Origin: Blastococcus atacamensis | GTDB lineage: Bacteria; Actinomycetota; Actinomycetes; Mycobacteriales; Geodermatophilaceae | Assembly: GCF_002938425.1 (NCBI RefSeq) | Contig: NZ_POQU01000035.1 | Coordinates: 1-35,466, forward strand | DNA: 35,466 nt | Direction: 5' to 3' | Shown: in pieces, positions 1 through 23,154 of the stretch | How positions within the stretch are numbered: the first letter of the stretch is position 1 | Layout: each line of letters begins with the position of its first letter | Program-made: the position numbers and the translations under genes | Notes under the pieces: model-generated | Told to the model about the DNA's origin: nothing | Databases searched by the model: none | What the model saw: only the letters and a program-made list of their open reading frames with translations

Positions 1-1305
<1,305 letters not shown>

Positions 1306-1395: not shown

Positions 1396-2316
1396 TCAGG
1401 CCGCGGGCGTGAAGCGCTCGTGGCGGCCGGCGCGCAGCAGGCCCAGCCATTCGCGGTAGCCCGCCGGATCACGCCGGGTCACCAGGAAGAACCAGGAGAA
1501 CCGGACGAGCTCCAGCGGCAGCAGCCAGCGCATGCCCGGCTGCCGCATGAGGTACCCGCGGTTCCGGTAGGTGTAGTAGCGCTTCCACGCCGTCTCGGGG
1601 TACTGCGCGGACAGCCGGCCCCCCAGGATCGGGACGAACTCGGACCGCCCGTTGGGGTGCAGGTAGGTGGCGTCCAGCGCGGTGCCGAAGACGACGCCGG
1701 CGCGCACCATCCGCCGGTGGATCTCGGTCTCGTCACCGCGGGCGAACAGGCGGAGGTCCGGCACGCCGACCAGGCTGAGCGTGCCGGCCGCGAAGAGCGC
1801 CCCGTTGAACAGCGACGCATAGCCGGGCAGGAACGCGTCGTCCTTGAGCCCGGACCGCTCGCCCTTCCATCGCAGGCCGGTGCGCACCGGGAAGGCGAAC
1901 TTGTCGGGGTCGTCGATGTCGGCGACCGTGGGCGACACCTCGCCGAGGTCCCGCTCGCGGGCGACCCGCAGCAGCGTGGCGAGCACGTGCTCGTCGGCCG
2001 GCCGGCCGTCGTCGTCGGCGCACCAGACCCAGTCGGCGCCCTGCGCGAGCGCGGTGAGCATCCCCAGGGCGAAGCCGCCGGCGCCGCCGAGGTTGGTCTG
2101 GGAGGCCACGTAGGTGTGCGGCAGCCCGCTGGCGCGCACGACCTCCTCGGCCGGCTGGTCGGGGCCGTTGTCGACCACGATCACCGACTCGACCGGCCGG
2201 GTCTGGATGGCCAGGGCGGCCAGCGCCTGCTTCAGCGAGTCGGGACGGTGCCGGGTGACGATGACCGCGATGACGCGGTCGTCGTCGCGCTCCACCCCCG
2301 CACCCGCGCGGGACAC
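1396..2316 (-). CDS. glfT1: Galactofuranosyltransferase GlfT1
   Basis: Starts galactan by adding the first galactofuranose residues to the decaprenyl-PP-GlcNAc-rhamnose acceptor at the inner face of the membrane. It is a 306-aa GT2-fold enzyme. The N-terminal strand IAVIVTRHRP, the VVDNG turn, the NLGGAGGFALGM segment and the metal-binding DDD (about residues 101-103) follow in the expected order, and a GDETEIHRRM segment lies further on. From memory it matches M. tuberculosis Rv3782 along its whole length, including LFNGALF, YLHPNG and SWFFLVTRRDP. GTG start directly follows the TGA of wzt, so translation is probably coupled. It is the last gene of the leftward operon glfT2-wzm-wzt-glfT1. 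Confidence 0.92.
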   Translation of the reverse strand: MSRAGAGVERDDDRVIAVIVTRHRPDSLKQALAALAIQTRPVESVIVVDNGPDQPAEEVVRASGLPHTYVASQTNLGGAGGFALGMLTALAQGADWVWCADDDGRPADEHVLATLLRVARERDLGEVSPTVADIDDPDKFAFPVRTGLRWKGERSGLKDDAFLPGYASLFNGALFAAGTLSLVGVPDLRLFARGDETEIHRRMVRAGVVFGTALDATYLHPNGRSEFVPILGGRLSAQYPETAWKRYYTYRNRGYLMRQPGMRWLLPLELVRFSWFFLVTRRDPAGYREWLGLLRAGRHERFTPAA

Positions 2317-3094: not shown

Positions 3095-3997
3095 TCAGAC
3101 CCAGTACGCGACGCGGCTGCGGTAACGCCGCATGACCAGCAGGGTCACGGCCCAGCCCACCGCGGCGATCCCGCCGACGATGATCCAGGTACGCCACTCC
3201 TGGTCCTGGCCCAGCATCGGCCGCCGGATGATCTCGACGAAGTGGAACAGCGGGTTGAGCTCCACCAGCCGAGCCCGCTCGGCGACGGCCGGGTTGTCCA
3301 GCAGGACGTCGTACATCCAGACGATCGGCGTCAGGAAGAACAGCAGCTGCACCAGGCTCTGGGTCACCGGGGGCAGGTCGCGGAACCGGGTGCTCACGAT
3401 GCCGATCAGCAGCGCCACCCAGGTGCCGTTGACGATCAGCAGGGCCATCGCCAGGAAGGCCGAGAGGTCGGTCCAGCGCAGCGGCTGCGGGAACGCCACG
3501 AGCATGACGGCGTAGACGATCAGGTTGTGGGCGAAGAACAGCGTCTGCCGCCACACCAGCCGGTACACGTGGATGCTGATCGGCGCCGGTAGGTGGGTGA
3601 TCAGCCCCGTGTTGGCGACGAACACCTCCGAGCCCTCGGTGATGCAGCCGGAGATGAAGGCCCAGACGATCATCCCGACCAGCACGTGCGGCAGCAGCGT
3701 GGCCAGCTCGATTCCGAACAGTCCCGAGTAGAGGATGCCCAGCGCGATGGCGGTGACCGCCATGCTGATGGTGATCCAGATCGGGCCGAGGACCGAGCGC
3801 CGGTACCGCTGCCGGATGTCCTGCCAACCCAGGTGGAGCCACAGCTCACGCTGGTCCCAGCCCCGGCGCAGGTCCGCGAAGGCGGACCTGAAGTTCCGCC
3901 CGGTGGGGATCGGGGCGCTGCCTGCCCCACCGGAACGGCTCTCCGCCGGCCCGCCGCTCCCGGCGGGCGCGGCCTCGCGAGTACGACTCGAGGACAT
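3095..3997 (-). CDS. wzm: ABC-2 type permease for galactan export (Wzm type)
   Basis: Membrane subunit paired with the adjacent ATPase; matches the Rv3783 type. The 300-aa protein has a disordered, Gly/Ser/Pro-rich N-terminus of about 35 residues, then the amphipathic DLRRGWDQRELWLHLGWQDI stretch that precedes the first helix in this family. The RYRRSVLGPIWITISM segment follows, and about six hydrophobic helices come after it. The motif NPLFHFVEIIRRPML near the C-terminus is also typical. ATG start; 6 bases separate it from the glfT2 stop. In the inner membrane it would form a homodimeric channel for lipid-linked galactan. Confidence 0.92.
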   Translation of the reverse strand: MSSSRTREAAPAGSGGPAESRSGGAGSAPIPTGRNFRSAFADLRRGWDQRELWLHLGWQDIRQRYRRSVLGPIWITISMAVTAIALGILYSGLFGIELATLLPHVLVGMIVWAFISGCITEGSEVFVANTGLITHLPAPISIHVYRLVWRQTLFFAHNLIVYAVMLVAFPQPLRWTDLSAFLAMALLIVNGTWVALLIGIVSTRFRDLPPVTQSLVQLLFFLTPIVWMYDVLLDNPAVAERARLVELNPLFHFVEIIRRPMLGQDQEWRTWIIVGGIAAVGWAVTLLVMRRYRSRVAYWV

Positions 3998-4003
3998 CGG
4001 TGC

Positions 4004-5866
4004 TTACTCAGCCCCGCCGTCGAACAGCCGTCGCCAGTTGTCCCGGCTGGTCAGCTCGGGCAGCGCCTGCCGGTAGGCCGCGGCCGCCGCCGGGCCCTCC
4101 TTCGCCAGCCGCATGCAGGCCGCGAAGGACTCCTTCAGCAGCCGGACGCCGGTGTCCTTGTCGAACTGACGGACCCGGACGCCCCCCTGGGAGGCGTCGG
4201 TCACGACCGCCTTCGTGTAGCGGGAGACGTGCCACCAGTGGGAGTCCTCGAGCGGCACGTTCACGGATCCGCCGTTGCGGCCGGTCAGCTGCCAGAGGAG
4301 GCGCTTGGCCAGGACCGCCTTGAGCATCGACGGGTGGCCGGCCGCCCGCTCGGTGTCCTCGCCGCGCAGCGGCAGGTCCGGCACGTCCGACGCGCTGTGG
4401 ATCACGGTCTCCGGGAACGCCTTGCGCAGCTCGCGGACCTCGGACAGCGCGCGCTGCCCGCCGTCGTGCAGAAACTCCGGGCCGGCGAGGAAGTCGTCGA
4501 TGCCCTTGATGGCGGTGGCGGCCAGGCCGTACTGCATCGACGTCACGAAGGCGACCAGCCGGCCGAACAGGACCCGTGCCAGGCTCTTGCTGCGGAAGTC
4601 GGAGTGCAGCGCGGCGGTGATCAGGCTGTTCCGGACGCTGAAGTAGCGCGCCCAGTCGTCCTGGTCCTTCCAGGTGAAGTCGGCGTGCCACACGCCGGCG
4701 CCCGGCAGGGTGACGGTGGTGAAGCCGTTCTCGCGCGCCCGGTAGCCGTACTCGATGTCGTCCCACTGGAAGAACATCGGTAGCGGGTAGCCGGTCGCCG
4801 ACACGATCTCCGACGGGAGGATGGCGCTCCACCAGGCGTTGTAGACGCCGTCGACCCGGAGCTCCTGGTTCTCCTTGGTCATGTCGGCGTTCCACAGGGC
4901 GCGGGGAACGACCTTGCCGGCCTCGAGGATGTTCAGGTCGGCGTACTCGGCGCCGGTGTGCAGCCGCTTCGGGTGCAGCGCGTAGAGCATCTGCGCCCCG
5001 ACGATGACCGGCTGGCGCGCGGAGTTCGCGAACGCGGTGAGCCGGATGATCGACTCCGGCTCGAGGATGATGTCGTCGTCCATGAACAGGACGTTCGCGT
5101 GGTGCTCGTCCTCGATCTCGGTGATCTCGTACATGCCGCGGGTGAACCCGCCGGCGCCACCGAGGTTGGCCTGGTTGATGTAGTGCATCCGGCCGGCCAG
5201 GTCGGCGGAGACCTGCTCGAACGCCGGGTGGGCCGACACGCGCTTGTCGCCCTGGTCGATGACGTAGACCGAGTCGAGCTGGTCCAGCGCCGGCAGGTCG
5301 GCGGCGAGCGTCTGCAGGGTCTTGATGCAGTCGTCGGCCCGGTTGTGGGTGCAGATGACGACGGAGGTCTTGCGGACCCGGGGCGGGGTCGGGATGGTCC
5401 ACCGCGGGGAGGTGATCGTCAGGCTGCCGTCGGCCGACCGGAAGTCGGCCCAGATGGCGCCGCCGTCGACGAACTTGTCGATGAGCACGTCGAGGGAGAT
5501 CCGACCGGAGCCGGACACCTCCTGGCCGCCGATCGTGCGCGGCTCGCCGACGAAGTCGCTGGCGAACAGCTCGACGACACCCTCACCCGAGAACTCGGCC
5601 TCGAACGTCATCGTCGTGACGCCGGTCCAGCGCTGCCAGTACGACGCCGGGATGCGCCCGAAGTAGGTGTTGGTGCTCAGCGCCGAGTGCGGGTCGAGCG
5701 TGAAGGCGGTGCGCTCCAGGTGCACCCGCCCCTGCACGCGCTTGGCGTAGAGCTCGGCCGGGAGCCCGAGGGCCGGCGGCAGCGTCAGGACGCGCTGCGC
5801 CAGGCTGGTGACCTCCGGCGTCGAGACGGTCCCGTCGGCGGTGGTCGCGGCGGAAGTGGTGGTCAT
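4004..5866 (-). CDS. glfT2: Galactofuranosyltransferase GlfT2
   Basis: Processive polymerase that adds alternating beta-1,5 and beta-1,6 galactofuranose units to galactan. The 620-aa length is near that of Rv3808c (637 aa). It has an N-terminal beta-rich domain (about 40-160) with the SALSTNTYFGRIPASYWQRW segment. The GT-A domain follows: VVICTHNRADDC, metal-binding DDD at about 263-265, the catalytic WDDIEYG (Asp 369 and 370), the metal-ligand His in VWHADF (about 394), and a helical C-terminal domain. The ATG at 5866 has GAGGA about 12 bases upstream. It is the first gene of the leftward operon with wzm, wzt and glfT1, so both galactofuranosyltransferases and the exporter would be co-expressed. 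Confidence 0.95.
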   Translation of the reverse strand: MTTTSAATTADGTVSTPEVTSLAQRVLTLPPALGLPAELYAKRVQGRVHLERTAFTLDPHSALSTNTYFGRIPASYWQRWTGVTTMTFEAEFSGEGVVELFASDFVGEPRTIGGQEVSGSGRISLDVLIDKFVDGGAIWADFRSADGSLTITSPRWTIPTPPRVRKTSVVICTHNRADDCIKTLQTLAADLPALDQLDSVYVIDQGDKRVSAHPAFEQVSADLAGRMHYINQANLGGAGGFTRGMYEITEIEDEHHANVLFMDDDIILEPESIIRLTAFANSARQPVIVGAQMLYALHPKRLHTGAEYADLNILEAGKVVPRALWNADMTKENQELRVDGVYNAWWSAILPSEIVSATGYPLPMFFQWDDIEYGYRARENGFTTVTLPGAGVWHADFTWKDQDDWARYFSVRNSLITAALHSDFRSKSLARVLFGRLVAFVTSMQYGLAATAIKGIDDFLAGPEFLHDGGQRALSEVRELRKAFPETVIHSASDVPDLPLRGEDTERAAGHPSMLKAVLAKRLLWQLTGRNGGSVNVPLEDSHWWHVSRYTKAVVTDASQGGVRVRQFDKDTGVRLLKESFAACMRLAKEGPAAAAAYRQALPELTSRDNWRRLFDGGAE

Positions 5867-6091: not shown

Positions 6092-8668
6092 TCAGCCCGC
6101 TGCGCCGACCTGCACCGTTCCGTCGGACGCCTCCAGCAGGTACCCGCGCTGGAAGTCGGTCCGCTGCCCACCAGCGACGGCGGTGGGGTCGCCGACCGGG
6201 AACCCGAGGCTCCCCGCGTGGCCGCCGAGCTGCTTCCACCTGGCCAGGGTGGCACCTCGGACGACGTGCGCACCCGTGCCCGGGGACCAGTAGATCTCGC
6301 CGCCCTGCAGCCGCACGACGGCGCCGCCGCCGGTGGTGGTGGCGCCGTCGTGCGCGAGCGGGAAGCCCAGCGCCGCCGGACCGCCGAGGGCCTCGTACTT
6401 CGCCTGCAGCGCACCGCGCACGCCCTTCGTCCCGGTCGCCGCCGACCAGTAGAGGGCGCCCCCCTGGAAGTCGGTCTTGTAGCCACCGGGCACGGCCATG
6501 TCGTCACCGGTCGGGAAGCCCATCGGTCCCGCCTGGATCCCCAGGGACCGGTAGGTCGCCAGGATCGCGCCGCGCACCACGTGCGCGCCCGTGGCCGGTG
6601 ACCAGAAGAGGTCGCCGCCCTGGAGCCGGACCGTCGCACCGCCGCCCGTCGTGGTGGCGCCGTCGTGCGCGAGCGGGAAGCCCAGTGCCGCCGGACCGCC
6701 GAGGGCCTCGTACTTCGCCTGCAGCGCGCCGCGGACGCCCTTCGTGCCGGTCGCCGCCGACCAGTAGAGGGCGCCCCCCTGGAAGTCGGTCTTGTAGCCA
6801 CCGGGCACGGCCATGTCGTCACCGGTCGGGAAGCCCATCGGTCCCGCCTGGATCCCCAGGGACCGGTAGGTCGCCAGGATCGCGCCGCGCACCACGTGCG
6901 CGCCCGTGGCCGGTGACCAGAAGAGGTCGCCGCCCTGGAGCCGGACCGTCGCACCGCCGCCCGTCGTGGTGGCGCCGTCGTGCGCGAGCGGGAAGCCCAG
7001 TGCCGCCGGACCGCCCAGCGCCTCGTACTTCGCCTGCAGCGCGCCGCGGACGCCCTTCGTGCCGGTCGCCGCCGACCAGTAGAGGGCGCCGCCGCGGAAG
7101 TCGGTCTTGTAGCCACCGGGCACGGCCATGTCGTCGCCGGTGGGGTAGCCCATGGGCCCGGCCTGCGCCCCGAGGGCCCGGTAGGTGGCGAGGATGTCGC
7201 CCCGCACGACGCGCGCCCCGGTGGCCGAGGTCCAGTAGATGGAACCGCCGGTGAGGTCCACGTACGCGCCGTCGCCGGTCGACGTCGCGCCGTCGTTGAT
7301 CACCGGGTAGCCCAGTGCCGCCGGCCCGCCCGAGCGCTCGAACTTGTCCAGCAGCGCGCCGCGGATGGTGCGCGCGCCGGTGCCCGCCGACCAGTAGGTC
7401 GTACCGCCGGTGAAGCGGGTGCGGTACCCGCCGGGCACCGCCTCGTCGCCACCGACGGGGTAGCCGAGCACCCCGGCCTGCGCGCCGGCCTGGCGCCACG
7501 CGTCGAGGATCGCACCGCGCACCTCGTGCGCACCGGTGGCGGCCGACCAGTAGATCGCGCCGCCCTGGAAGTAGGTGTAGTAGCCGGTGCCGAACGGCGC
7601 GGCCGCGTCGTCGCCGACCGGATAGCCCAGGGCGCCGGCCGGACCACCGAGGGCCAGGTACCTCTCGAGGATCGCGCCGCGCACCACGTGGGCGCCGGTG
7701 TGCGCGTGCCAGAAGATGGTGCCGCCGGCGTAGGCCCGCGAGCAGCCGTCGTAGGGCAGGGTGCAGGTCGCGTCCTCCAGGGGCGCCGCCAGCTGGACCC
7801 CGGCAAAGGCGAGCTCGCTGTTCTTGTCCAGAACCGCGGCGCCGCCGGAGGACTGGGTGCTGCCGAACCAGTCGGTGAAGTACAGGAAGAAGTTCCGGTT
7901 GCCGTACGTGGAGCAGTCGTTCGCGGTTCCGTAGCCGGCGTCGAGCGCGGCCTGGTTGGGCACGTAGGGCGTGTAGTTGTACAGCCCGGCGGTGGCCTGG
8001 TTCTGGATGTACACCGAGGCCTTGCCGCACCTCGTGCCGCCGATGTTGTCGTACTCCGCGGTCATGGGCGCGTAGTTGATCGAATTGGTCATCCCGGCCC
8101 GGTAGTTGAACTTCGCCGGATTGGCCCGGTACTCCTTGAACCGGTGCGCCGCGCTGTAGAGCTGGTTGTAGAGGCCGAAGTACCGCGAGTCGCAGACCGA
8201 GGCGTCGGGGCAGGCGTAACCCATCGCGCGCTCGATGGCGTAGGCCGACGGCCCGCGGGAGCCGATCAGGCCCTGCTCCTTCTGCAGGATCACCATCAGG
8301 GCGCGGGGGTTGATCCCGCAGGCCAGCCCCACCTTGTGGATGATCGCGGCCGCGGACTCCCCGCCCGCTCCCTGGTAGGCGGCGCAGAAGGCGTCCGCCG
8401 GCCTCGTCCAGGTGTCCTGCCGGAAGGTCTTGAGACAGCGGTCGCCACTGCAGGAGGCCCCCTTCACCACCAGGAAGTCCTGGATGGCCTGGGCGGTCAT
8501 CGTGGTCGGGTCGTAGAAGACCCCGTCGCTGACGATGTTCCCGGCGTTGAAGAGCCTCAGGTCGGCCGCCTCGTGCAGGTCCGGCCGCTGCGGGGAGATC
8601 CCGGCGAGGAAGGCCACCCCCAGGCCGAGAGCGAGCAGGGCCGCGACGATCCACCTCGGGCGCGGCAT
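6092..8668 (-). CDS. Secreted LGFP-repeat protein with N-terminal putative lysozyme-like domain
   Basis: An 858-aa exported protein. An N-terminal hydrophobic segment (about 6-25) acts as signal or anchor. Residues about 35-270 form a Cys-containing domain with the conserved ILQKEQGLIG, the YGLYNQLYSAAHRFKEY-like stretch and FNYRAGMTNSINYAP. This domain is annotated in related proteins as hemagglutinin-like and recalls lysozyme/transglycosylase folds, but no catalytic activity can be asserted. From about 290 to the end there are ten LGFP/LGYP/MGFP motifs, one every 50-55 residues. LGFP repeats are known from corynebacterial PS1 and are thought to attach proteins to arabinogalactan-containing walls. 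I chose the ATG that overlaps the TGA of the upstream gene by one base (TGATG); a GTG one codon earlier is the alternative. Coupled translation with the 188-aa protein suggests joint work. Confidence 0.85.
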   Translation of the reverse strand: MPRPRWIVAALLALGLGVAFLAGISPQRPDLHEAADLRLFNAGNIVSDGVFYDPTTMTAQAIQDFLVVKGASCSGDRCLKTFRQDTWTRPADAFCAAYQGAGGESAAAIIHKVGLACGINPRALMVILQKEQGLIGSRGPSAYAIERAMGYACPDASVCDSRYFGLYNQLYSAAHRFKEYRANPAKFNYRAGMTNSINYAPMTAEYDNIGGTRCGKASVYIQNQATAGLYNYTPYVPNQAALDAGYGTANDCSTYGNRNFFLYFTDWFGSTQSSGGAAVLDKNSELAFAGVQLAAPLEDATCTLPYDGCSRAYAGGTIFWHAHTGAHVVRGAILERYLALGGPAGALGYPVGDDAAAPFGTGYYTYFQGGAIYWSAATGAHEVRGAILDAWRQAGAQAGVLGYPVGGDEAVPGGYRTRFTGGTTYWSAGTGARTIRGALLDKFERSGGPAALGYPVINDGATSTGDGAYVDLTGGSIYWTSATGARVVRGDILATYRALGAQAGPMGYPTGDDMAVPGGYKTDFRGGALYWSAATGTKGVRGALQAKYEALGGPAALGFPLAHDGATTTGGGATVRLQGGDLFWSPATGAHVVRGAILATYRSLGIQAGPMGFPTGDDMAVPGGYKTDFQGGALYWSAATGTKGVRGALQAKYEALGGPAALGFPLAHDGATTTGGGATVRLQGGDLFWSPATGAHVVRGAILATYRSLGIQAGPMGFPTGDDMAVPGGYKTDFQGGALYWSAATGTKGVRGALQAKYEALGGPAALGFPLAHDGATTTGGGAVVRLQGGEIYWSPGTGAHVVRGATLARWKQLGGHAGSLGFPVGDPTAVAGGQRTDFQRGYLLEASDGTVQVGAAG
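6338..7135 (-). repeat. 315-bp tandem DNA repeat within the LGFP gene
   Basis: About two and a half copies of a 315-bp unit (two LGFP modules, 105 aa). Comparable positions fall at 6441, 6756 and 7071. Copies 6441-6755 and 6756-7070 appear to differ at only about two bases, including at third codon positions. This means recent duplication or gene conversion rather than selection on the protein alone. The frame is kept, so unit gain or loss would change protein length by 105 aa. Confidence 0.9.
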
Positions 8669-9234
8669 CACGGCACCATCACCTCACCGGCGGAGGACTC
8701 CCCCGCCGACGTGGCGGAGGAGTACCGGACGACCGCCTGCCACGGGCCGCTGGTGAGCTCCGGGCCGCTGACCCGGAGCTCGCCGCAGGCCGTCGTGGTC
8801 GCGTCCGGCGTCGCCTCGCCGGAGCCCTCCAGGACGACGCCGCCGCGGCTGAGGACCAGCGTGCAGCGGCCGCCCTGCTCGACCCGGTCCAGGACGACAC
8901 CCCCGACCACCACCGCCCCGGCGGGGTCCCACCCCGAGTACGTGAGGGCGACGTCCGCCGACCGCGGCTGAGAGGGCGCGGGAACCGTGCTGGGTCCGGC
9001 TTCCACGGTCGGTGCCGGCTGGGACGCGCTCCCGGTCGCGGGCGTTGCGTCGACCGGAGGCTCGGTGGCGCCGTCGGACGGCGCGGTCGCCGCGCCGTTC
9101 CCCCCGGCCGTGCTCGCCGCGCCCTCCGTGGTGGGCCGCAGCAGGTAGCCGCCGACCGCGGCGGCGGCTCCCAGCGCGAGGGCCAGCGTCAGGAGGACGG
9201 GGCGACTGCGACGGCGACGAGGGGCAGCGGACAC
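8668..9234 (-). CDS. Secreted or membrane-anchored protein of unknown function
   Basis: A 188-aa protein I do not recognise. The N-terminus is strongly basic (RRRRSRP) and followed by one hydrophobic helix (about 13-31), then a Ser/Thr/Pro/Ala-rich linker to about residue 90. A C-terminal domain (about 92-188) begins VALTYSGWDPAGAVVVGGVV, contains two Cys (GGRCTLVL and TACGELRV) and looks like a small extracellular beta-sandwich. The GTG start has GGGAG about 7 bases upstream. The stop overlaps the start of the LGFP protein gene by one base, so the two are almost certainly translated together. A helper or partner of the LGFP protein at the wall is a reasonable guess. Confidence 0.75.
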   Translation of the reverse strand: MSAAPRRRRSRPVLLTLALALGAAAAVGGYLLRPTTEGAASTAGGNGAATAPSDGATEPPVDATPATGSASQPAPTVEAGPSTVPAPSQPRSADVALTYSGWDPAGAVVVGGVVLDRVEQGGRCTLVLSRGGVVLEGSGEATPDATTTACGELRVSGPELTSGPWQAVVRYSSATSAGESSAGEVMVP

Positions 9235-9379
9235 GACGACTCCCGGTGGTACAGCGCGGAGGGCGCCCCGCCCGTCATGCCCGGCCGTCAGCCAGGAACA
9301 TCGGAGAGGCGCACCCTGTGATCGCTACGCTACTGGCTGTCACGCTCCGCGCGTGCGTGCCACGCCGGGCCTACCCGCA

Positions 9380-11686
9380 TCAGGAACGCTGGGTGATCGC
9401 CGACGTGGATGCGTTCCAGGTCAGCGACCCGCGCTCGAAGTCGCTGCGCAACCCCTCGGGGACGGCGTACGTCGTCCGCGTCGGGAAACCCAGCGAGCCC
9501 GTCGGGCCGCCCCGGGAGACGTAGGCGCCGGCGAGCGCCCCCCGCACGATGTGCGTCCCGGTGGCCGGCGACCAGTAGACGTCGCCGCCCTGGAAGCGCA
9601 CGAACGCACCCTTGCGATCCGACGTCAGCGCGTCGGTCGTCGTCGGGAAGCCCAGCACGCCGCCGGACCCACCCGCCTGCAGCCAGGTCGTGAGGATGGA
9701 ACCCACGACGGTCTGCGTGCCGGTGGACGGTGAGTAGTAGATGTCCCCGCCCTGGAAGCGCGTGAAGTAGCCACGACCATCGGGGGTGGGGGCGTCCGAC
9801 GTCGTCGGGAAGCCCATGTGCCCGGTCGCGCCGCCACGGGCCAGCCACGTGGTCAGGATCGAGCCCCGCACGATCTGGGTGCCCGAGGCCGGCGACCAGT
9901 AGACGTCCCCGCCCTGGAACCGCACGAAGGCGCCCTTGCGGTCCGCCGTCAGCGCGTCGGTGGTCGCCGGGAAGCCCAGCGGGCCGGCCGAACCGCCGGA
10001 CTGCAGCCACGTGCCGAGGATGGAACCCACGACGGTCTGCGTGCCGGTGGACGGCGAGTAGTAGATGTCCCCGCCCTGGAAGCGCGTGAAGTAACCACGA
10101 CCATCGGGGGTGGGGGCGTCCGACGTCGTCGGGAAGCCCATGTGCCCGGTCGCGCCGCCACGGGCCAGCCACGTGGTCAGGATCGAACCCCGGACCACAT
10201 GCGTGCTGCTGGCCGGCGACCAGTAGATGTCCCCGCCCTGGAACCGCACGAACGCGCCGCGCCCGTCGGAGGTGCCGGCGTCGTCGGCGGTCGGGGCGCC
10301 GAGGGCGGCGGGCCCGCCGAGGGCCAGGTACTTGTCGAGGATCGCTCCGCGGACCACGCGCACGCCGCCGCCCTGGGAGGAGTACAGCCGCCCGTTGGCG
10401 TAGACCTGCCAGGAGACACCGTCCTTGGCCTGCTCGGTGCCGACCGGCGCGCCGAGCCCGGCCCGCAGACCGGCGTCGGCGGCGTAGCGGCGCTCGATCG
10501 GGGTCATCGCGGCGATCGTGCGGTCGTACGCCTGGGTGCGGATCTCGCCCATCCGCGCGAAGCCGTAGCGGCCGGGGCAGGCGGTGGAGCCGACGTCCCG
10601 GTGCGCGAAGACGGTCGGCAGGGTGACCTGCGCACCCTTCTCGTACCGGGAGGTGCCGGTCTTGCCGGCGGAGGTGAGCGTGACCGATCCCTTGGGGTCG
10701 ATGCCGTACAGCGAGAACTTCCAGGCGATGATGGCCGAGACCGCGTCGACCATCGGCTGCGTGGTGTTGACGGTGTCGTAGTTGCCGAGCATCGAGACGC
10801 CGAACGTGCCGGAGTTGAAGCCGGCGGCGTGCGCGCCGATCACCGTGCTGGCCAGGCCGCCGTCGCGGCCCTCCCAGAGCCGGCCGAACTTGTCGACGAT
10901 GACGTTGTAGCCGATGTCGCCCCAGCCCAGGCTCCTGGCGTGGTACGTGTAGATCGAGCGCATGATCGCCGGCACGTCGCCCGCGCCGTAGTTGTTCGAG
11001 TCGGCGGTGTGGTGCACCGTGGCGGCCTTGAGCGTCGGGGCGAACTCCGGGCTCCAGGTGCGCAGGGCCGGGTCGGCGCCCCACTGGGCACGCGAGTAGA
11101 CCGGCGGCATGGCCATCGCCGCGTCCGCGGTGTCGCGGATCTCGGCCTCGCCGAGGGCGGTGTCGGCCGCACTGGTACCGGGGTCGACCAGGTCGATGCG
11201 CACGTCGGTGGGCTCCGCGCCCGTGCGGGTCACGAGCTCGGCCTCGACGCCGGTGCTCGGGCCGGTCCACAGCGGGGAGGTGCCTCCGCGACTCTCGCCG
11301 GCGGCACCGGCCTGCTCCAGGCCCTCGGTGCCGACCTGGGTCCACTCCCCCCACTCGCCGTCGTCGTCCTGCACACGCACCTGGACGACGGTGTCGGTCA
11401 CGGCCGGGTCGTACGCCCAGGTCACGCCCACCAGCGAGAAGCCGCCGGTGTCGGTCCGGGTCAGCGTCATGACCGGCTCGTCCTCGGGAACGCCCGCGAC
11501 CGGCACGGTGGTGCCCTGCTGGATCTCCACGTCCGGAGCCGGGGTGGCGACCGACCCCATCGCGACCGCCTCGGAGGTGGTCTTCACGGGCACTGGTTCC
11601 GGCCGGGGCGGCGACGAGACCGGCAGCACGAGGAGCAGGCCGGCCAGGCCGAAGGAGGCCGCCAGAATCACGAGGAGTCGGCGCAC
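9380..11686 (-). CDS. LGFP-repeat N-acetylmuramoyl-L-alanine amidase
   Basis: Predicted secreted peptidoglycan amidase, of the same architecture as Rv3811. A signal peptide spans about residues 1-24. Residues about 50-190 are an unassigned beta-rich region. The PGRP/Amidase_2 domain runs from YSRAQWGADP (about 197) to about 385. Zinc ligands are visible: His 225/226 in TVHHTADS, His 362 in AHRDVGSTACPG and Cys 370. Seven LGFP-like modules follow (about 395-768). The enzyme would cut the bond between muramic acid and the stem peptide while the repeats hold it at the wall. The GTG start has AAGGA 7-8 bases upstream. It is the first of three leftward envelope genes. Confidence 0.9.
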   Translation of the reverse strand: MRRLLVILAASFGLAGLLLVLPVSSPPRPEPVPVKTTSEAVAMGSVATPAPDVEIQQGTTVPVAGVPEDEPVMTLTRTDTGGFSLVGVTWAYDPAVTDTVVQVRVQDDDGEWGEWTQVGTEGLEQAGAAGESRGGTSPLWTGPSTGVEAELVTRTGAEPTDVRIDLVDPGTSAADTALGEAEIRDTADAAMAMPPVYSRAQWGADPALRTWSPEFAPTLKAATVHHTADSNNYGAGDVPAIMRSIYTYHARSLGWGDIGYNVIVDKFGRLWEGRDGGLASTVIGAHAAGFNSGTFGVSMLGNYDTVNTTQPMVDAVSAIIAWKFSLYGIDPKGSVTLTSAGKTGTSRYEKGAQVTLPTVFAHRDVGSTACPGRYGFARMGEIRTQAYDRTIAAMTPIERRYAADAGLRAGLGAPVGTEQAKDGVSWQVYANGRLYSSQGGGVRVVRGAILDKYLALGGPAALGAPTADDAGTSDGRGAFVRFQGGDIYWSPASSTHVVRGSILTTWLARGGATGHMGFPTTSDAPTPDGRGYFTRFQGGDIYYSPSTGTQTVVGSILGTWLQSGGSAGPLGFPATTDALTADRKGAFVRFQGGDVYWSPASGTQIVRGSILTTWLARGGATGHMGFPTTSDAPTPDGRGYFTRFQGGDIYYSPSTGTQTVVGSILTTWLQAGGSGGVLGFPTTTDALTSDRKGAFVRFQGGDVYWSPATGTHIVRGALAGAYVSRGGPTGSLGFPTRTTYAVPEGLRSDFERGSLTWNASTSAITQRS
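9692..10186 (-). repeat. 324-bp tandem DNA repeat within the amidase gene
   Basis: Positions 9692-9862 recur at 10016-10186 with about two mismatches, a period of 324 bp (two LGFP modules, 108 aa). The bases in between are related but more diverged. It encodes the MGFPTTSDAPTPDGRGYF stretch twice. As in the neighbouring LGFP gene, the repeat unit is a pair of modules, but the sequences of the two genes differ. Confidence 0.85.
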
Positions 11687-11933: not shown

Positions 11934-12614
11934 ATGACAGGTGAACGGCCGACGGGAACCGCCCCCGCACGCAGCGCCCTGGACCTCGTCTCCGGGCTGG
12001 TCGAGGCCTACGCCGGCCGCACCCCCGTCGAGACGATCGCCGTCGTGGGCAACGCCCCGGTATCGCCCGATCCCGAGCGCGCGACGGCGATCGACGCCGC
12101 CGATCTGGTGATCCGGGTCAACGGGTTCGCCCTCGACGACGCGCACACCATGCGCGGCTTGGGCACCCGGGCCGACGTCGTCGTCGTCCAGTGGCTGCTG
12201 GAGGCCACCCCCTGGGTGTTCCAGGACTACCGCTCACGGCTCTACCTCTACAACGAGCCCGGCGCCATGTACTTCGACGGCGAGCGGCTGCCGCGCTGGT
12301 GGCCCGCCGACCTCGGCCTGGTTCCGGTCCCGAACCGGGAGATCACCCAGCCGCTCTCCCGGGCGCTGGGCTTCGACCCGGCGGAGCCCCGGTGGGCGAC
12401 GACCGGGAGCGTCGCGGCCTACCTGGCCCGCACGCTCTATCCCGACGCCCATCTGCTCCTGGCCGGCTTCTCGTTCGTGTACGAGCCGGTGCAGACGACC
12501 TGGGACCACGCCTACGGCGGCAACGCGAAGCTGACCGAGGACCACGTACTGACAGCGGAGGCGAACATGCTGCGCAGCTTCATCGACGAGGGCCGTGCGG
12601 AGCTGCTCGCGTGA
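11934..12614 (+). CDS. GT29-like (sialyltransferase-type) glycosyltransferase, putative
   Basis: A 226-aa protein with no signal peptide, membrane helix or cysteine. The motif order resembles sialyltransferase family GT29, known mainly from animals. A sialylmotif-L-like stretch has AVVGNAP (36-42), IDAADLVIRVN (53-63) and GTRADV (77-82). A sialylmotif-S-like stretch has ATTG (155-158) and LLLAGFSF (174-181). A motif-III-like DHAY follows (His 192), then a motif-VS-like H-x4-E (His 204, Glu 209) in EDHVLTAE. In GT29 enzymes the last His is the catalytic base. The downstream genes make and CMP-activate a nonulosonic acid, so transfer of that sugar is the natural role (inference). It overlaps the coiled-coil gene by 4 bases (GTGA). 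It might instead use another CMP-sugar such as CMP-Kdo. Confidence 0.65.
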   Translation: MTGERPTGTAPARSALDLVSGLVEAYAGRTPVETIAVVGNAPVSPDPERATAIDAADLVIRVNGFALDDAHTMRGLGTRADVVVVQWLLEATPWVFQDYRSRLYLYNEPGAMYFDGERLPRWWPADLGLVPVPNREITQPLSRALGFDPAEPRWATTGSVAAYLARTLYPDAHLLLAGFSFVYEPVQTTWDHAYGGNAKLTEDHVLTAEANMLRSFIDEGRAELLA

Positions 12615-13171
12615 GCGGCGGAGGCCTGCGCCGCATCGCCGGCGCGGTCCGGCAGAACGGCGCCTGGAACCGCGTGCAGCAGAAGCTCGACCACGTCGTC
12701 GCCGTGCGCACCGAACCGTCCCTCGGCGAGGTGCGGGAGCGGGTGGACCGCACCGGCGAGGACCTGCGGGCCGAGCTGCGTGGCGCCGTCGACGACCTCC
12801 GCCGGCACGTGGACGAGCGCTCCGACCACCTGGCCGGCGATATCCGGCGGCTAGACGACGACCTGCGCCGGCTCTCCGACGCCGTCCAGGGCCTGCGCGA
12901 CCAGTGCGGCGAGGTGCGGTTCGACCTCGACCGGCTCGGTCCGCACGTGGCCTCCCTCGAGGTGCGCATCGCCGACGGCGAGCGTTCCGGCGTGAACCTC
13001 GAGTCCGACGCGGCGGAGACCGCCGAGTCCCGCCGGTTGCTGGACGAGGTGAGCCGCGAGCACGAGCGGATCCGCGTGCGCTTCAGCGGGTTGGCGCTCT
13101 ACGAGGAGCGGCTGCGCAAGCTCGAAGAAGCACGGTGGCCGGGCTCATCCGGTCACCCCACGGCCCCCTGA
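12611..13171 (+). CDS. Coiled-coil protein of unknown function
   Basis: A 186-aa soluble protein, not recognised. The GTG start lies in the GTGA overlap with the end of the sialyltransferase-like gene, so the two are translationally coupled. After a basic N-terminus (GLRRIAGAVRQNGAWNRVQQ) come long heptad-like stretches rich in Glu, Asp, Arg and Leu, such as LRRHVDERSDHLAGDIRRLD, broken by short turns. This predicts two or three coiled-coil helices from about residue 38 to 170. No enzyme motif or membrane segment is seen. A scaffold or oligomerisation partner of the upstream transferase is possible. Confidence 0.75.
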   Translation: MSGGGLRRIAGAVRQNGAWNRVQQKLDHVVAVRTEPSLGEVRERVDRTGEDLRAELRGAVDDLRRHVDERSDHLAGDIRRLDDDLRRLSDAVQGLRDQCGEVRFDLDRLGPHVASLEVRIADGERSGVNLESDAAETAESRRLLDEVSREHERIRVRFSGLALYEERLRKLEEARWPGSSGHPTAP

Positions 13172-13408
13172 CGACCCCTCCGGGAGCGCCCTCCGGCGGC
13201 GTTGCCGTCGGCCGGGGCGACGCGCCCGGGAGCCGCGGAGGCAGCGGACCGGTTCCTCACGCGCGTAGCGTAGATGCGCCGTCCCGGCGGGTATGGTGCA
13301 GAAGCAGCCACTCTGCGTGACCTGCCGCGCCGGCCGTCGGCCGGGTACTCCTCCCACCGAACACCGCAGACGGCGCACGCTGGCGCCTCGAGAGGGTGCA
13401 CTTCCGAC

Positions 13409-14284
13409 ATGACCACTGAAGCCCCCCTGGTGATCGCCGAGATCGGCTGCAACCACGCCGGCAGTCTCGAGCTGGCCAAGCGGATGGTCTCCATCGCGGC
13501 GAAGTTCTGCGAGGTCGACGCCGTCAAGTTCCAGAAGCGGAACAACCGGCAGCTGCTCTCCCCCGAGCAGTACGACGCGCCCCACCCCAACCCGATGCAC
13601 AGCTTCGGCGACAGCTACGGCGCCCACCGCGAGTTCCTCGAGTTCGACATGGCGCAGCACGAGGAGCTCAAGGACCACTGCGAGGCCGAGGGCGTCGTCT
13701 ACTCCACGTCGGTCTGGGACCCCACCTCGGCCCGCGAGGTCGCCAAGCTCGCTCCCGAGTTCATCAAGGTGCCCTCGGCGACGAACCTCAACTTCGAGGT
13801 CCTCGGCATCCTCTGCGACGAGTACTCCGGCGGCATCCACATCTCCCTCGGCATGACCACCCGCGCCGAGGAGGAGCAGATCGTCTCCTTCCTCGACGAG
13901 CGCGGCCGGCTCGCCGACGTCACCCTCTACGCCTGCACGTCGGGCTACCCGGTCCCCTTCGACCAGCTGGCCCTGATGGAGATCCGCCGGCTCGACGAGG
14001 CCTACGGCGACCGGCTGCAGCGCGTCGGCTTCTCCGGGCACCACCTGGGCATCGCCGCCGATGTCGCCGCCATGGCCCTGGGTGCGACGGCGATCGAGCG
14101 CCACTTCACCCTGGACCGGACCGCCAAGGGCACCGACCACTCGGCGTCGCTGGAGCCCGACGGCCTGCGCAAGCTCAAGCGCGACACGGCCAACGTCAGC
14201 AAGGCGCTCACCTACAAGGCCGAGGAGCTCCTCGAGGTGGAGAAGGCGACCCGGGAGAAGCTCAAGTGGACCGACGGCCTCTGA
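13409..14284 (+). CDS. neuB: NeuB-family nonulosonic acid synthase lacking the SAF domain
   Basis: Predicted to condense a hexose or N-acyl-hexosamine (or its 6-phosphate) with phosphoenolpyruvate to a nine-carbon nonulosonic acid. The TIM-barrel signature is clear: VIAEIGCNHAGS at the N-terminus, AVKFQKRN, IKVPSATNLN, a GFSGHHLG segment and IERHFTLDRTAKGTDHSASL near the end. At 291 aa it stops right after the barrel. The C-terminal antifreeze-like (SAF) domain of classical NeuB (about 340-350 aa), which helps shape the substrate site of the neighbouring subunit, is absent. I chose the ATG at 13409, after AGAGGG; an upstream in-frame extension looks non-coding. The gene overlaps the CMP-transferase gene by 19 bases. 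Kdn or Neu5Ac chemistry cannot be told apart from sequence alone. Confidence 0.85.
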   Translation: MTTEAPLVIAEIGCNHAGSLELAKRMVSIAAKFCEVDAVKFQKRNNRQLLSPEQYDAPHPNPMHSFGDSYGAHREFLEFDMAQHEELKDHCEAEGVVYSTSVWDPTSAREVAKLAPEFIKVPSATNLNFEVLGILCDEYSGGIHISLGMTTRAEEEQIVSFLDERGRLADVTLYACTSGYPVPFDQLALMEIRRLDEAYGDRLQRVGFSGHHLGIAADVAAMALGATAIERHFTLDRTAKGTDHSASLEPDGLRKLKRDTANVSKALTYKAEELLEVEKATREKLKWTDGL

Positions 14285-15447
14285 ACGTCGTCATCCCGGT
14301 CCGGGGTGGCAGCAAGGGGATCCCGAAGAAGAACGTCGCCGTCGTCGGCGGGTGCCCGCTGATCGCCTGGACCGTTGCCGCCGCGGTGGGCGCCACGTCG
14401 GTCGACCGCGTCATCGTCTCCACCGACTCGGCGGAGATCGCCGCCGTCGCCCGCCTCTACGGCGGCCCCCGCGTCGAGATCCACGCCCGCTCGGCGGAGT
14501 CGGCCACCGACACCGCCTCCAGCGAGTCGGCGCTCCTGGAGGCCGTGCGCGACCTCGAGGTCGAGGGTGCCGTGGCGCTGGTGCAGGCGACGAGCCCGCT
14601 GCTGTCCAGCGGGGTGGTCGACGAGATCGCCGACCGCCTGTCCACGCACGACAGCGCCCTCACCGTGGTCCGTCGTCACCAGTTCCTCTGGGCCGACGAG
14701 GACGCGGAGGGCCGACCGGTGAACTACTCCCCCGACGCCCGCCCGCGGCGGCAGGACTGGTCGGGACACCTGATCGAGACCGGCGCCGTCTACGCCACCT
14801 CGGTCGAGCGGCTGCTGGCGTCGGGCGTCCGCATCGGTGGTCGGGTCGGCCTGGTGGAGACCGACGAGGCCGAGGCCGTCGAGATCGACTCCCCCACCGA
14901 CCTGGTGGTCACCGACGCACTGCTGCGGACGCACCGGATCCGACCGGCCAAGGTGCGCAGCGGCCCGGTCCGGCTGGTGGTCACCGACGTCGACGGCGTC
15001 CTCACCGACAACGGCCTGACCTACGGAACCGTCGCGACGGAGACCAAGACGTTCTCCGCCCGCGACGGCAAGGGCTTCCAGCTCCTGCGCGAGGCCGGCG
15101 TCCGCACGGCGCTGCTCACCTCCGAGGACCACGAGAGCGTGGCCGAGCGGGCGCGCAAGCTCCGCGTCGACGACTGCGTCATGGGCTCGACGGACAAGCT
15201 GGCCGACCTGGTGATGCTGGGCGCCCGGTACGGCGTCCCCCTCTCCCAGATCGCCTACGTCGGCGACGACGTGCACGACGTCCCCGCGCTCGTGGCCGCG
15301 GGCGTGTCCGGCGCTCCCGGGGACGCCCGTCCCGAGGCCACGGACGTCGCCGACCACGTGGTCACCGCGGCCGGCGGCTCCGGCGCGTTCCGCCAGTTCA
15401 CCGACCACCTGTTCGCCCGTTCCATCCCCGTCCGCGGCGGCGTCTGA
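14266..15447 (+). CDS. neuA: CMP-nonulosonate cytidylyltransferase fused to KdsC-like HAD phosphatase
   Basis: A two-domain protein of 393 aa. Residues 1-225 are a NeuA-type cytidylyltransferase: VVIPVRGGSKGIPKKN (8-23), VSTDS (51-55), QATSPLL (107-113) and ETGAVYATS (171-179). Residues 232-393 are a KdsC-like HAD phosphatase: motif I DVDGVLTD (241-248), the ARDGKGFQLL stretch, Lys 311 and GDD at 333-335. This layout resembles animal CMAS. The phosphatase could remove the 9-phosphate of a NeuB product before activation with CTP, making a separate phosphatase unnecessary. The GTG start lies inside the neuB end, with GGGAG 9 bases before it. A hairpin right after the stop ends the cassette. Confidence 0.88.
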   Translation: MDRRPLNVVIPVRGGSKGIPKKNVAVVGGCPLIAWTVAAAVGATSVDRVIVSTDSAEIAAVARLYGGPRVEIHARSAESATDTASSESALLEAVRDLEVEGAVALVQATSPLLSSGVVDEIADRLSTHDSALTVVRRHQFLWADEDAEGRPVNYSPDARPRRQDWSGHLIETGAVYATSVERLLASGVRIGGRVGLVETDEAEAVEIDSPTDLVVTDALLRTHRIRPAKVRSGPVRLVVTDVDGVLTDNGLTYGTVATETKTFSARDGKGFQLLREAGVRTALLTSEDHESVAERARKLRVDDCVMGSTDKLADLVMLGARYGVPLSQIAYVGDDVHDVPALVAAGVSGAPGDARPEATDVADHVVTAAGGSGAFRQFTDHLFARSIPVRGGV

Positions 15448-15448
15448 C

Positions 15449-15471
15449 CCGGACGGATCGGTCCCGTCCGG
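15449..15471 (+). terminator. Hairpin terminator after the CMP-transferase gene
   Basis: CCGGACGG and CCGTCCGG form a perfect 8-bp stem with a 7-base loop, starting 2 bases after the stop at 15447. No T tract. It separates the nonulosonic acid cassette from the LCP gene. Confidence 0.55.
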
Positions 15472-15674: not shown

Positions 15675-17234
15675 GTGAGCACCAACGAGCCCGGCCCCTA
15701 CGAGGCCGACGACCTCCGGCCGCTGCCGCCGCGCCTGGACCCGCGCGCCGGGCGTCCCGGGCGCCCGCGCACGGCGGCCGATGAGCGCCGGGACGCCGGC
15801 GACGGCGAGCCGAGGCGCCGCCGGGGCAACGGCCGGGTCGCCGTCACCGCCCGGATCGTCGCGGGCCTGCTCTCCGCCGCACTCCTCGCGGGCTCCGGCT
15901 GGGGCTGGTACCTGGGTCAGGTCGCCGCGGCGACGGTGAACCGCACCGATGCCATCCCGACCGACGGCAACGAGGGCACCGGCAACGCCGGCGCGGCGAT
16001 GAACCTGCTGCTGGTGGGCAACGACAGCCGCAGCTCGCTCTCCGAGGAGCAGCTCGCCGAGCTCAACGCCGGCACCGACTCCGGCGTCAACACCGACACG
16101 ATGATCCTGGTGCACGTGCCCGCCGACGGGTCGCGGGCCTCGTTCGTCTCGTTCCCCCGCGACTCCTACGTCGACATCCCCGGCTACGGCAAGGACAAGC
16201 TCAACGCCGCCTACGCCTACGGCTACGCCGAGGTGGACGACGACGCCGCCGAGAACGCGAAGCAGGCCTCGGGCGCCCAGCTGCTGGTCCGCACGATCAG
16301 CCGGCTGACCGGGCTGCAGATCGATCACTACGCCGAGGTCGACCTGCTGGGCTTCTTCAACTTGAGCTCCGTCGTGGGCGGCGTGGAGGTCAACCTCTGC
16401 GCGGCGGTCGACGACTCCTACTACTCCGGTGCGGTGTTCGCCGCCGGGCCGCAGACGATCAGCGGCGCCGAGGCGCTGAAGTTCGTGCGCCAGCGCCACG
16501 AGCTGCCCCGCGGCGACTTCGACCGGATCATCCGCCAGCAGGTCTTCATCGCCGGCGTGCTGCGCAAGATGCTCTCCGACGAGGTTCTGCTCGATCTCGG
16601 CAAGCAGCGCCAGCTCGTCCAGGCCGCGGCCGAGTCGCTCACCGTGGACAAGAACCTCGACCTGCTCCAGCTCGCCGAGCAGATGCAGTCGGTGACCGCC
16701 GGCAGCATCGAGTTCCAGACGATCCCCTACATCGGGACCGACCGGGACGAGCAGAACCGGTCGATCATCCGGCTGGAGGACGAGGAGACGCTGCTCGAGT
16801 TCTTCGCCGACCTCTCCGCGACCCCGGAGCCCGCGGCCCCGGCGACCACCGAGGCCCCGAAGACCGTCGACCCCGCGCAGGTGCCGGTCGAGATCTTCAA
16901 CGGCTCGGGCACGTCCGGCCTGGCCGGCAAGGCGGCCACCGCCCTCGCGGCGGCGGGCTTCCCCGTCGGGTCCACGGGCAACGCCTCGTCGATGGACTTC
17001 GAGCAGACCGAGATCCGCTACGCCGCCGGTGACGAGGACCTCGCCAACACCGTGGCCGCCGCCATCCCCGGGGCCGCGCTCACGGAGAGCCAGGACCCTA
17101 CGAGCGGCACCGTCCAGGTCATCCTCGGCAGCGACTTCAACGGGGTCGGCCAGGCCGTCACCCCGACCGCCCCTGCCGCGGAGACCGAGGGCGAGGACGC
17201 CCGCACCGCCGCGGACACCACCTGCATCAACTGA
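15675..17234 (+). CDS. LytR-CpsA-Psr (LCP) family cell-wall glycopolymer ligase
   Basis: Transfers a polyprenyl-linked glycopolymer, in mycobacteria arabinogalactan, onto peptidoglycan outside the membrane. The 519-aa protein has a basic, Pro-rich cytoplasmic N-terminus, one membrane helix (about 57-79) and an LCP domain. The domain shows NLLLVGNDSR (about 110-119), NTDTMILVHV, SFPRDSYVDIPGYGKDKLN with the lipid-phosphate-binding Arg/Asp, and FVRQRHELPRGDFDRIIRQQ. A C-terminal LytR_C domain follows an Ala/Pro/Thr linker and begins PVEIFNGSGTSGLAG. The GTG at 15675 has AAGGA 8 bases upstream. The stop overlaps the TIGR03089 gene by one base, as in the Rv3267-Rv3268 pair. It sits among galactan, arabinan-donor and nonulosonic acid genes, any of whose polymers could be its substrate. 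Confidence 0.9.
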   Translation: MSTNEPGPYEADDLRPLPPRLDPRAGRPGRPRTAADERRDAGDGEPRRRRGNGRVAVTARIVAGLLSAALLAGSGWGWYLGQVAAATVNRTDAIPTDGNEGTGNAGAAMNLLLVGNDSRSSLSEEQLAELNAGTDSGVNTDTMILVHVPADGSRASFVSFPRDSYVDIPGYGKDKLNAAYAYGYAEVDDDAAENAKQASGAQLLVRTISRLTGLQIDHYAEVDLLGFFNLSSVVGGVEVNLCAAVDDSYYSGAVFAAGPQTISGAEALKFVRQRHELPRGDFDRIIRQQVFIAGVLRKMLSDEVLLDLGKQRQLVQAAAESLTVDKNLDLLQLAEQMQSVTAGSIEFQTIPYIGTDRDEQNRSIIRLEDEETLLEFFADLSATPEPAAPATTEAPKTVDPAQVPVEIFNGSGTSGLAGKAATALAAAGFPVGSTGNASSMDFEQTEIRYAAGDEDLANTVAAAIPGAALTESQDPTSGTVQVILGSDFNGVGQAVTPTAPAAETEGEDARTAADTTCIN

Positions 17235-22812: not shown

Positions 22813-22944
22813 CGATCCAGTTTCCCGCAGGGACCCGCAGCAGGCAGGACGGCCGAGGAACGTGTCCATCACTTCCGGCCGGAGGCTCCGGACGGCGTCG
22901 TCGATGGGGCCGAGATTGCGGGCTTCTGCCGAGACCTGCCTTCC

Positions 22945-22970
22945 GAAGCATCCTCGGATCGTGATGCTTC
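22945..22970. promoter_or_regulatory. Inverted repeat, possible operator
   Basis: GAAGCATC and GATGCTTC are perfect 8-bp arms with a 10-base centre, about 75 bases upstream of the TAACGT box. It sits in a divergent gap between two secreted or membrane acyl-modifying genes, so it may be an operator acting on both. Role inferred from position. Confidence 0.35.
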
Positions 22971-23044
22971 TGTGACTCGAGTGACCACTGCGGTGCGCGA
23001 GATGTGACGGGCCCGTCCGTTCCGCGACCGGCCTCCATCGCTGC

Positions 23045-23050
23045 TAACGT
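23045..23050 (+). promoter_or_regulatory. Candidate -10 box of the acyltransferase gene
   Basis: TAACGT in the divergent gap; a start about 7 bases further would give a leader of about 100 bases to the GTG at 23155. No clear -35 box. Confidence 0.3.
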
Positions 23051-23154
23051 TCCGACGTCAGCTACTGAGCGCTACCCCATGATCACCGATCGTCGAGCCG
23101 GGGGCCTCGGGAAGCCGGACGGGCCATCTGCTTCCCACGGGGGTTACCGCAAGC

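Follow-up and report, generated by a model that had tools for sequence, protein, structure and literature searches.

In a 35,466-nucleotide stretch of Blastococcus atacamensis DNA (contig NZ_POQU01000035.1; this whole stretch is called the window), four plus-strand genes at 11934-15447 appear to form a two-module cassette. A donor module would make CMP-Kdn, the cytidine monophosphate (CMP) derivative of 3-deoxy-D-glycero-D-galacto-nonulosonic acid (Kdn), and a transfer module, a GT29-like transferase with a coiled-coil protein, would use it to decorate a lipid-linked wall glycan, most likely galactan. We give this reading, which rests on sequence comparison, a probability of about 0.5. Judged from genomic comparison, the GT29 and coiled-coil pair is recurrent, since it is found in four actinobacterial families with three kinds of donor genes: pseudaminic acid (Pse), neuraminic acid (Neu) and NeuA-phosphatase. 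The original prediction, made from the DNA letters, was of a transferase, a synthase and a CMP-activation/phosphatase fusion; this set is supported by Pfam and NCBIfam domains and by structural matches to GT29. All four genes were confirmed in place, with overlaps of 4 bases in the transfer pair and 19 bases between NeuB and NeuA-HAD, and 237 bases between the two gene pairs.

According to its AlphaFold2 (AF2) model, the 226-residue transferase has a GT29 sialyltransferase fold. The predicted local distance difference test score (pLDDT) was 91.2, all 30 Foldseek matches at E <= 0.001 were GT29 chains, and so were the 14 best VIA-align rows. A profile of 47 transferase relatives, compared with PDB sequences, matched only GT29 chains at E <= 1. 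PF00777 gave 20.8 bits on the window transferase, under the curated cut-off of 23, and matched 18 of the 47 relatives at E <= 0.01 (best 6.7e-8). Because the single-sequence score was below the cut-off, calling the motifs required fold and family evidence, and our claim is limited to a "GT29-like" enzyme of a divergent branch. Sialylmotif L was located by the Pfam stretch 30-83, which falls on profile positions 52-103, and by profile alignment with ST6Gal1 and ST8SiaIII. H204-x4-E209 aligned with the His and Glu of motif VS in the same two enzymes, at negligible score. T157-G158 was assigned by eye as presumably sialylmotif S and H192 as motif III, and N63 is at what we take to be the CMP-binding Asn position. 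Among the 47 rows, R61, T157, G158 and E209 were kept in all, N40 and H204 in 46, and H192 in 45; N63 was kept in 32, with T in 14. The transfer module has no membrane segment. Genomic linkage to nonulosonate genes suggests that the enzyme acts on a CMP-nonulosonate.

The recurrence of the pair was seen in a scan made with the transferase only (one genome per species, two peptide patterns), in which the best 80 of 83 relatives lay in 79 distinct loci. These loci came from Pseudonocardiaceae (54), Geodermatophilaceae (11), Nocardioidaceae (7), Microbacteriaceae (5) and two metagenome-assembled genomes (MAGs) without a family. With an iterated profile, a coiled-coil relative was found to adjoin the GT29-like gene in 79 of the 79 retrieved loci; 77 of these matches came through the position filter, and the other two (L166, L167) overlap the end of the transferase match. 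The heptad pattern of the window protein scored above all 200 shuffles. Its AF2 model (pLDDT 90.9, predicted template modelling score 0.48) has a 110-residue helix (17-126) followed by a 42-residue helix (134-175), and a C-terminal motif of the family (R155, R157, Y164, E165, R167 and E172) is invariant in 31 rows. With starts chosen by rule, 72 of 73 relatives are 121-221 residues long. Within the order, the transferase was found in 37 of 397 genomes, only in families f1 (14, own included) and f15 (23). Nocardioides insulae (L165) has two GT29-like genes in one Pse locus, at 1123-1818 and 10001-10651, about 9 kb apart. Saccharomonospora iraqiensis (L168, L169) retains a divergent transferase and coiled-coil gene, and a genome-wide look found no NeuB in the L169 genome; joint decay of the transfer pair and donor genes is possible in this species.

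Next, the product of the donor module was considered, which is probably Kdn. NeuB matched PF03102 (E 1.8e-62, 211 bits, cut-off 22.1) and gave 192 bits against the N-acetylneuraminate synthase equivalog TIGR03569, below the cut-off of 400. NeuA-HAD matched CTP_transf_3 (E 5.2e-20) and a HAD domain. These domain matches support the 9-phosphate route that had been proposed. The animal route was rejected as the closest comparison, since NeuA-HAD beside NeuB in actinobacterial and alphaproteobacterial loci is nearer; of 28 actinobacterial loci in which NeuB matched well, 16 have the fusion next to it. The domain scan did not find a SAF domain on the window NeuB. SAF was present in 1 of 30 NeuBs scanned (the window, 26 HAD-linked and 3 alphaproteobacterial) and in all 26 that are linked to NeuC or PseBC (12 Neu; 14 chosen from 50 Pse). 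The HAD half keeps D10, D12, T54, K80, D103, D104 and E56/R64/K67 of the Bacteroides thetaiotaomicron KDN-9-P phosphatase. We take positions 56, 64 and 67 to be the substrate-reading residues. Among 29 HAD domains of this type (matches over 45 bits, with the window and two alphaproteobacterial domains included), E56/R64/K67 was kept in 28, the exception being L020. At position 103, 26 of the 29 carry N; D stands there in the structurally solved phosphatase, in L016 and in the window. In two KdsC proteins position 56 is R and position 67 is E or D, and PDB entry 4hgq shows Ala at position 56.

Another possible product is N-acetylneuraminic acid (Neu5Ac) or a relative, made via N-acetylmannosamine 6-phosphate as in animals, which we consider unlikely. 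The second-best PDB match of the NeuA half was the mouse-type CMP-Neu5Ac synthetase 1qwj, and an AGE-family epimerase gene (PF07221) elsewhere in the genome makes N-acetylmannosamine conceivable. That gene counts against Kdn, as does the score of the HAD half with the KDN-9-P phosphatase model NF058599, its best NCBIfam match, at 116 bits where the cut-off is 180. On the other side, neither NanE nor a NeuC-type gene was found in the genome, and its sole PF02350 gene is WecB (240 bits, cut-off 210) and not NeuC. The cassette holds no kinase or epimerase gene, and the SAF domain missing here is present in all 26 Neu and Pse synthases scanned. Therefore, the earlier remark that an epimerase is lacking is true of the cassette and not of the genome, which has WecB and the AGE-family gene elsewhere. 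A mannose-6-phosphate isomerase gene is also present in the genome. Kdn, to which the original prediction pointed, is likelier than Neu5Ac because there is no NanE or NeuC-type gene, NeuB is without SAF, and the phosphatase residues are of the KDN-9-P type.

The transfer and donor modules appear, from their sequence relationships, to have been exchanged independently. Within the 79 loci, donor genes were PseB and PseC in 51, NeuC in 10, the NeuA-HAD kind in 6 (all Actinokineospora) and none in 12. These labels rest on reference genes that were identified by eye at first and afterwards scanned against NCBIfam. PseB, PseI and NeuC were above their cut-offs, PseC scored 397 bits (cut-off 423.5) and the Neu-type NeuB 326 bits (cut-off 400), and NeuA was nearest PseF (101 of 206 bits); the PseF-like protein had no NCBIfam match at E <= 1e-20. 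When eight whole genomes (window, L091-L093, L098, L134, L164, L169) were searched, seven had NeuB. This search covered 5 of the 12 donor-less loci, and donor genes were found elsewhere in the genome for L091 and L092 (NeuB-NeuC-NeuA), L134 (Pse) and L164 (NeuA-HAD and NeuB). The three donor labels, placed on a tree of 80 transferases, require 7 changes, with a minimum of 2. This was a quick tree with an unresolved base; eight unlabelled rows were excluded from the count, and L091, L092, L134 and L164 were labelled from the genome look-ups. The window transferase is 70-73% identical to the two Geodermatophilus rows of the alignment (74-76% by the scan) and is sister to three Geodermatophilus rows on the tree (Shimodaira-Hasegawa-like approximate likelihood ratio test 100), yet the donor kind is different. 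In Geodermatophilus, NeuB-NeuC-NeuA and one more gene occupy the same spacer, between amidase and LCP genes, as the window cassette, and the transfer pair sits between GlfT2 and an LGFP gene, apart from the donor genes.

Ten alphaproteobacterial plasmid records match the window NeuB at 56-58% identity; actinobacterial HAD-linked rows reach at most 39%, and L011 reaches 42% over part of its length. On an initial tree the window NeuB lay on a very long branch; after three alphaproteobacterial rows were added, it grouped with them at 100/100. The fork joining this group with actinobacterial HAD-linked rows has weak support (73/40), L011 lies outside, and long branches meet there. We do not claim that all NeuBs linked to NeuA-HAD form one clade. 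A full-length NeuA-HAD (a fusion by 96% query cover) adjoins NeuB in two of four alphaproteobacterial loci opened, those on plasmids of Sinorhizobium and Pseudorhodobacter; in Tritonibacter and Marinovum the two are not adjacent. NeuA-HAD is at most 38% identical among 11 plasmid records with at least 80% cover, and one further record has a shorter match at 60-80% identity. The alphaproteobacterial loci sit near proteins annotated as alpha-2,3-sialyltransferase and DUF6716, and the window transferase had no match in the plasmid collection. A transferase like that of Geodermatophilus and a NeuB like those of alphaproteobacteria suggest independent exchange, and interchangeable donor operons under one transferase lineage would let the surface sugar change without a change of transferase.

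Mycobacterial galactan is a cytoplasmic product of GlfT1 and GlfT2 and leaves the cytoplasm through Wzm/Wzt. In the mechanism that we propose, NeuB would condense a hexose-6-phosphate, most likely mannose-6-phosphate, with phosphoenolpyruvate to give Kdn-9-phosphate (Kdn-9-P). The fused HAD domain would remove the phosphate, and the NeuA half would activate Kdn to CMP-Kdn. The GT29-like enzyme and its coiled-coil partner would then take CMP-Kdn in the cytoplasm and place Kdn on a lipid-linked wall glycan. The acceptor is likely, from the gene setting, to be the galactan made by GlfT1/GlfT2, modified before Wzm/Wzt export and LCP ligation; a soluble transferase encoded among galactan genes could reach the glycan before export. 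We infer only loosely what the coiled-coil protein does: it may tether the transferase to the polymerase, or serve as a ruler. The cassette occupies the amidase/LCP spacer of a galactan locus (Table 1). This setting among galactan and LCP genes, part of the original prediction, was borne out, as Glf, GlfT1, Wzt and Wzm were above NCBIfam cut-offs and LCP was recognized by Pfam.

It is also possible, though we favor it less, that the same cassette serves another acceptor, such as a teichulosonic-acid-like wall polymer, a glycolipid or a protein, and that the galactan locus is a convenient site for wall genes. A galactan trio (GlfT1, Wzt and Wzm, each over 40 bits and all within the fetched stretch) was present in 53 of the 79 pair loci: 49 of 54 in Pseudonocardiaceae, 3 of 11 in Geodermatophilaceae and 1 of 2 in the unplaced MAGs. 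The three Geodermatophilaceae loci are those of Geodermatophilus, and the window, too, has galactan genes around the pair. This linkage argues against another acceptor, as does the fact that no polymerase or flippase gene was recognized in the cassette. Several findings weigh against galactan. The trio was beside the pair in none of the 7 Nocardioidaceae and 5 Microbacteriaceae loci, where the acceptor may be different, and did not adjoin it in 8 of 11 Geodermatophilaceae loci. The five Blastococcus congeners that have the pair carry it upstream of purK, three of them with Pse genes and two with NeuB-NeuC-NeuA. The Geodermatophilus donor genes stand apart from the transfer pair, and Streptomyces wall Kdn is located, in passages of PMC11481543, in a separate Gal-Kdn polymer. 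With 49 of 53 trio loci in Pseudonocardiaceae, a galactan linkage across several families was weakened, and shared ancestry explains much of it. This recount makes decoration or capping of galactan less likely and another acceptor likelier. In the Microbacteriaceae loci (L132, L148, L152, L153, L157), the transferase occurs with Pse genes (PseC was not seen in L132), and in the three Microbacterium loci Glf is nearby, as is a Wzm/Wzt pair with weak matches.

Capping is a further, unlikely reading by analogy, in which the pair would be a terminator with a molecular ruler and the nonulosonic acid would cap galactan, setting its length before export. O-antigen terminators carry a coiled-coil ruler, and a CMP-Kdo (3-deoxy-D-manno-octulosonic acid) terminator is known, according to parts of PMC11231755. 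In keeping with this, the coiled-coil gene is beside the CMP-sugar transferase in every locus retrieved, often near Wzm/Wzt, with its long helix and narrow range of lengths. In known systems the ruler and terminator are one protein, and two are found here. Their Wzt has a carbohydrate-binding module; Pfam found ABC_tran alone on the 254-residue window Wzt. Of the seven pair-less congeners opened, five kept Wzm, Wzt and GlfT1 (the stretches of the remaining two stop short of these genes), which means that export can do without capping, and the families without the trio beside the pair also speak against it. An undescribed module, in which GT29 and an obligate coiled-coil ruler would cap or decorate galactan before export by the ATP-binding cassette transporter with Kdn-, Neu- and Pse-type donors swapped, is doubtful, and decoration of galactan with Kdn remains our preferred reading.

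Table 1. Features of the cassette and of the galactan locus around it in the window
Feature	Position	Strand	Basis or remark
UDP-galactopyranose mutase Glf	28..1305	+	TIGR00031 361 bits, cut-off 304
Galactofuranosyltransferase GlfT1	1396..2316	-	NF050113 475 bits, cut-off 330
Galactan export ABC transporter ATPase Wzt, 254 aa	2317..3081	-	NF050108 450 bits, cut-off 400
Galactan export ABC transporter permease Wzm	3095..3997	-	NF050109 427 bits, cut-off 380
GlfT2-like galactofuranosyltransferase	4004..5866	-	PF19320, PF17994
N-acetylmuramoyl-L-alanine amidase with LGFP repeats, left spacer border	9380..11686	-	PF01510, PF08310
GT29-like CMP-nonulosonate transferase (predicted)	11934..12614	+	226 aa
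Coiled-coil partner protein	12611..13171	+	186 aa; GTG start; 4-base overlap with GT29-like gene
NeuB-family synthase without SAF domain, probable Kdn-9-P synthase	13409..14284	+	PF03102
NeuA (CMP-nonulosonate synthetase) fused to C-terminal HAD phosphatase	14266..15447	+	GTG start
Perfect 8-bp inverted repeat 3' of cassette, no T-run	15449..15471		Sequence
LCP-LytR_C glycopolymer ligase, right spacer border	15675..17234	+	PF03816, PF13399 (searched as 15678-17234)

The amidase/LCP spacer is 330-427 bp and cassette-free in 10 of 12 congener loci opened; the other two (G005, G017) are arranged otherwise. None of 22 Blastococcus congeners had a NeuB above 33% identity to that of the window, which rules out that the four genes are conserved as a set within Blastococcus. 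In 5 of the 22, the same transferase had a NeuB of a different class next to it, and 17 had neither a NeuB relative nor the transferase at the thresholds used. The proposed linkage of all four genes was, therefore, not conserved in relatives; that of the GT29 and coiled-coil pair was. Of 23 Blastococcus genomes, only one has the cassette in this form, as might be seen with a decaying or silent acquisition that has no function. We think this very improbable given four open frames, host-like codon composition and conserved GT29 and HAD residues. The third-position GC of the four genes (0.93-0.98) matches that of neighboring genes, and the idea of an anomalous composition left by a recent transfer was rejected. 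An alternative upstream ATG at 13274 would lengthen the NeuB frame; with the best plasmid relatives (H21-H23, H25), the alignment begins at residue 1 or 2 of the protein started at 13409. The hairpin thought to close the cassette exists as a perfect stem, and as a terminator it was not reported by the terminator scan and has no T-run.

On the other side of the congeners' pair, sbcCD-like frames (by eye) form the border in three of five. The corresponding site of the congeners' nonulosonic-acid cluster in the window, 21919-25320, between purK and SbcCD genes (25383-29488), contains a SucT-like acyltransferase (NF058601 346 bits, cut-off 1275) and a frame that, by eye, looks secreted. Three tandem minus-strand genes lie at 6092-11686, two with 10 and 6 LGFP repeats, and the arrangement and identity of these three genes vary between congeners.

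The window enzyme shares the fold and sialylmotif L with CAZy GT29 members (mammalian ST6GALNAC2, ST3Gal1, ST6Gal1, ST8SiaIII), and its H-x4-E may, at negligible alignment score, be that of motif VS. It is 226 residues long, anchor-free and actinobacterial, and in its branch the gene stands next to one for a coiled-coil protein and occurs with donor genes of Pse, Neu or Kdn type. Bacterial GT29 was reported in 2018 with 23 sequences, 19 of them alphaproteobacterial, in the portion of PMC5811610 that describes them; its main text gave no match for the word "Actinobacteria". For Kdn, passages of PMC6200933 describe a route in B. thetaiotaomicron and Prymnesium parvum from mannose-6-phosphate through Kdn-9-P and Kdn to CMP-Kdn, with the Prymnesium Kdn-9-P synthase using mannose-6-phosphate alone among seven sugars tested. 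The same three activities are expected here, and the B. thetaiotaomicron phosphatase positions examined are kept; in contrast, the window phosphatase is fused behind the CMP synthetase and its specificity is predicted. The Streptomyces coelicolor teichulosonic acid region SCO4873-SCO4882 is similar, by description in parts of PMC13011467 and PMC11481543, in giving an actinobacterial Kdn wall polymer, and pairs of NeuA-HAD and short NeuB occur in large-genome actinobacteria of the sample. The window differs from the Streptomyces type in having its NeuB in another clade and a galactan/LCP setting with GT29. The O-antigen ruler/terminators WbdD, WbbB and ORF7-O4, described in sections of PMC11231755, likewise combine a CMP-ulosonate transferase, a coiled-coil and an ABC glycan exporter. 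Klebsiella O antigens have Kdo caps. Unlike WbdD and WbbB, the window has separate polypeptides (relatives match as separate frames), a GT29 enzyme in place of GT99/GT137, a Wzt on which no binding module was found, and a Gram-positive wall. We found no literature joining GT29, nonulosonic acids and actinobacterial galactan in an open-access search, with subscription papers mostly outside it.

The GT29 family is best known for the sialyltransferases of animals. If our reading is true, a conserved actinobacterial GT29 branch places an acidic sugar on a wall glycan. In the loci retrieved, this branch always comes with a coiled-coil partner, and it occurs with three nonulosonic acid pathways and, in two families, with galactan export genes. 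It would provide compact, anchor-free GT29 enzymes and a natural experiment in donor specificity.

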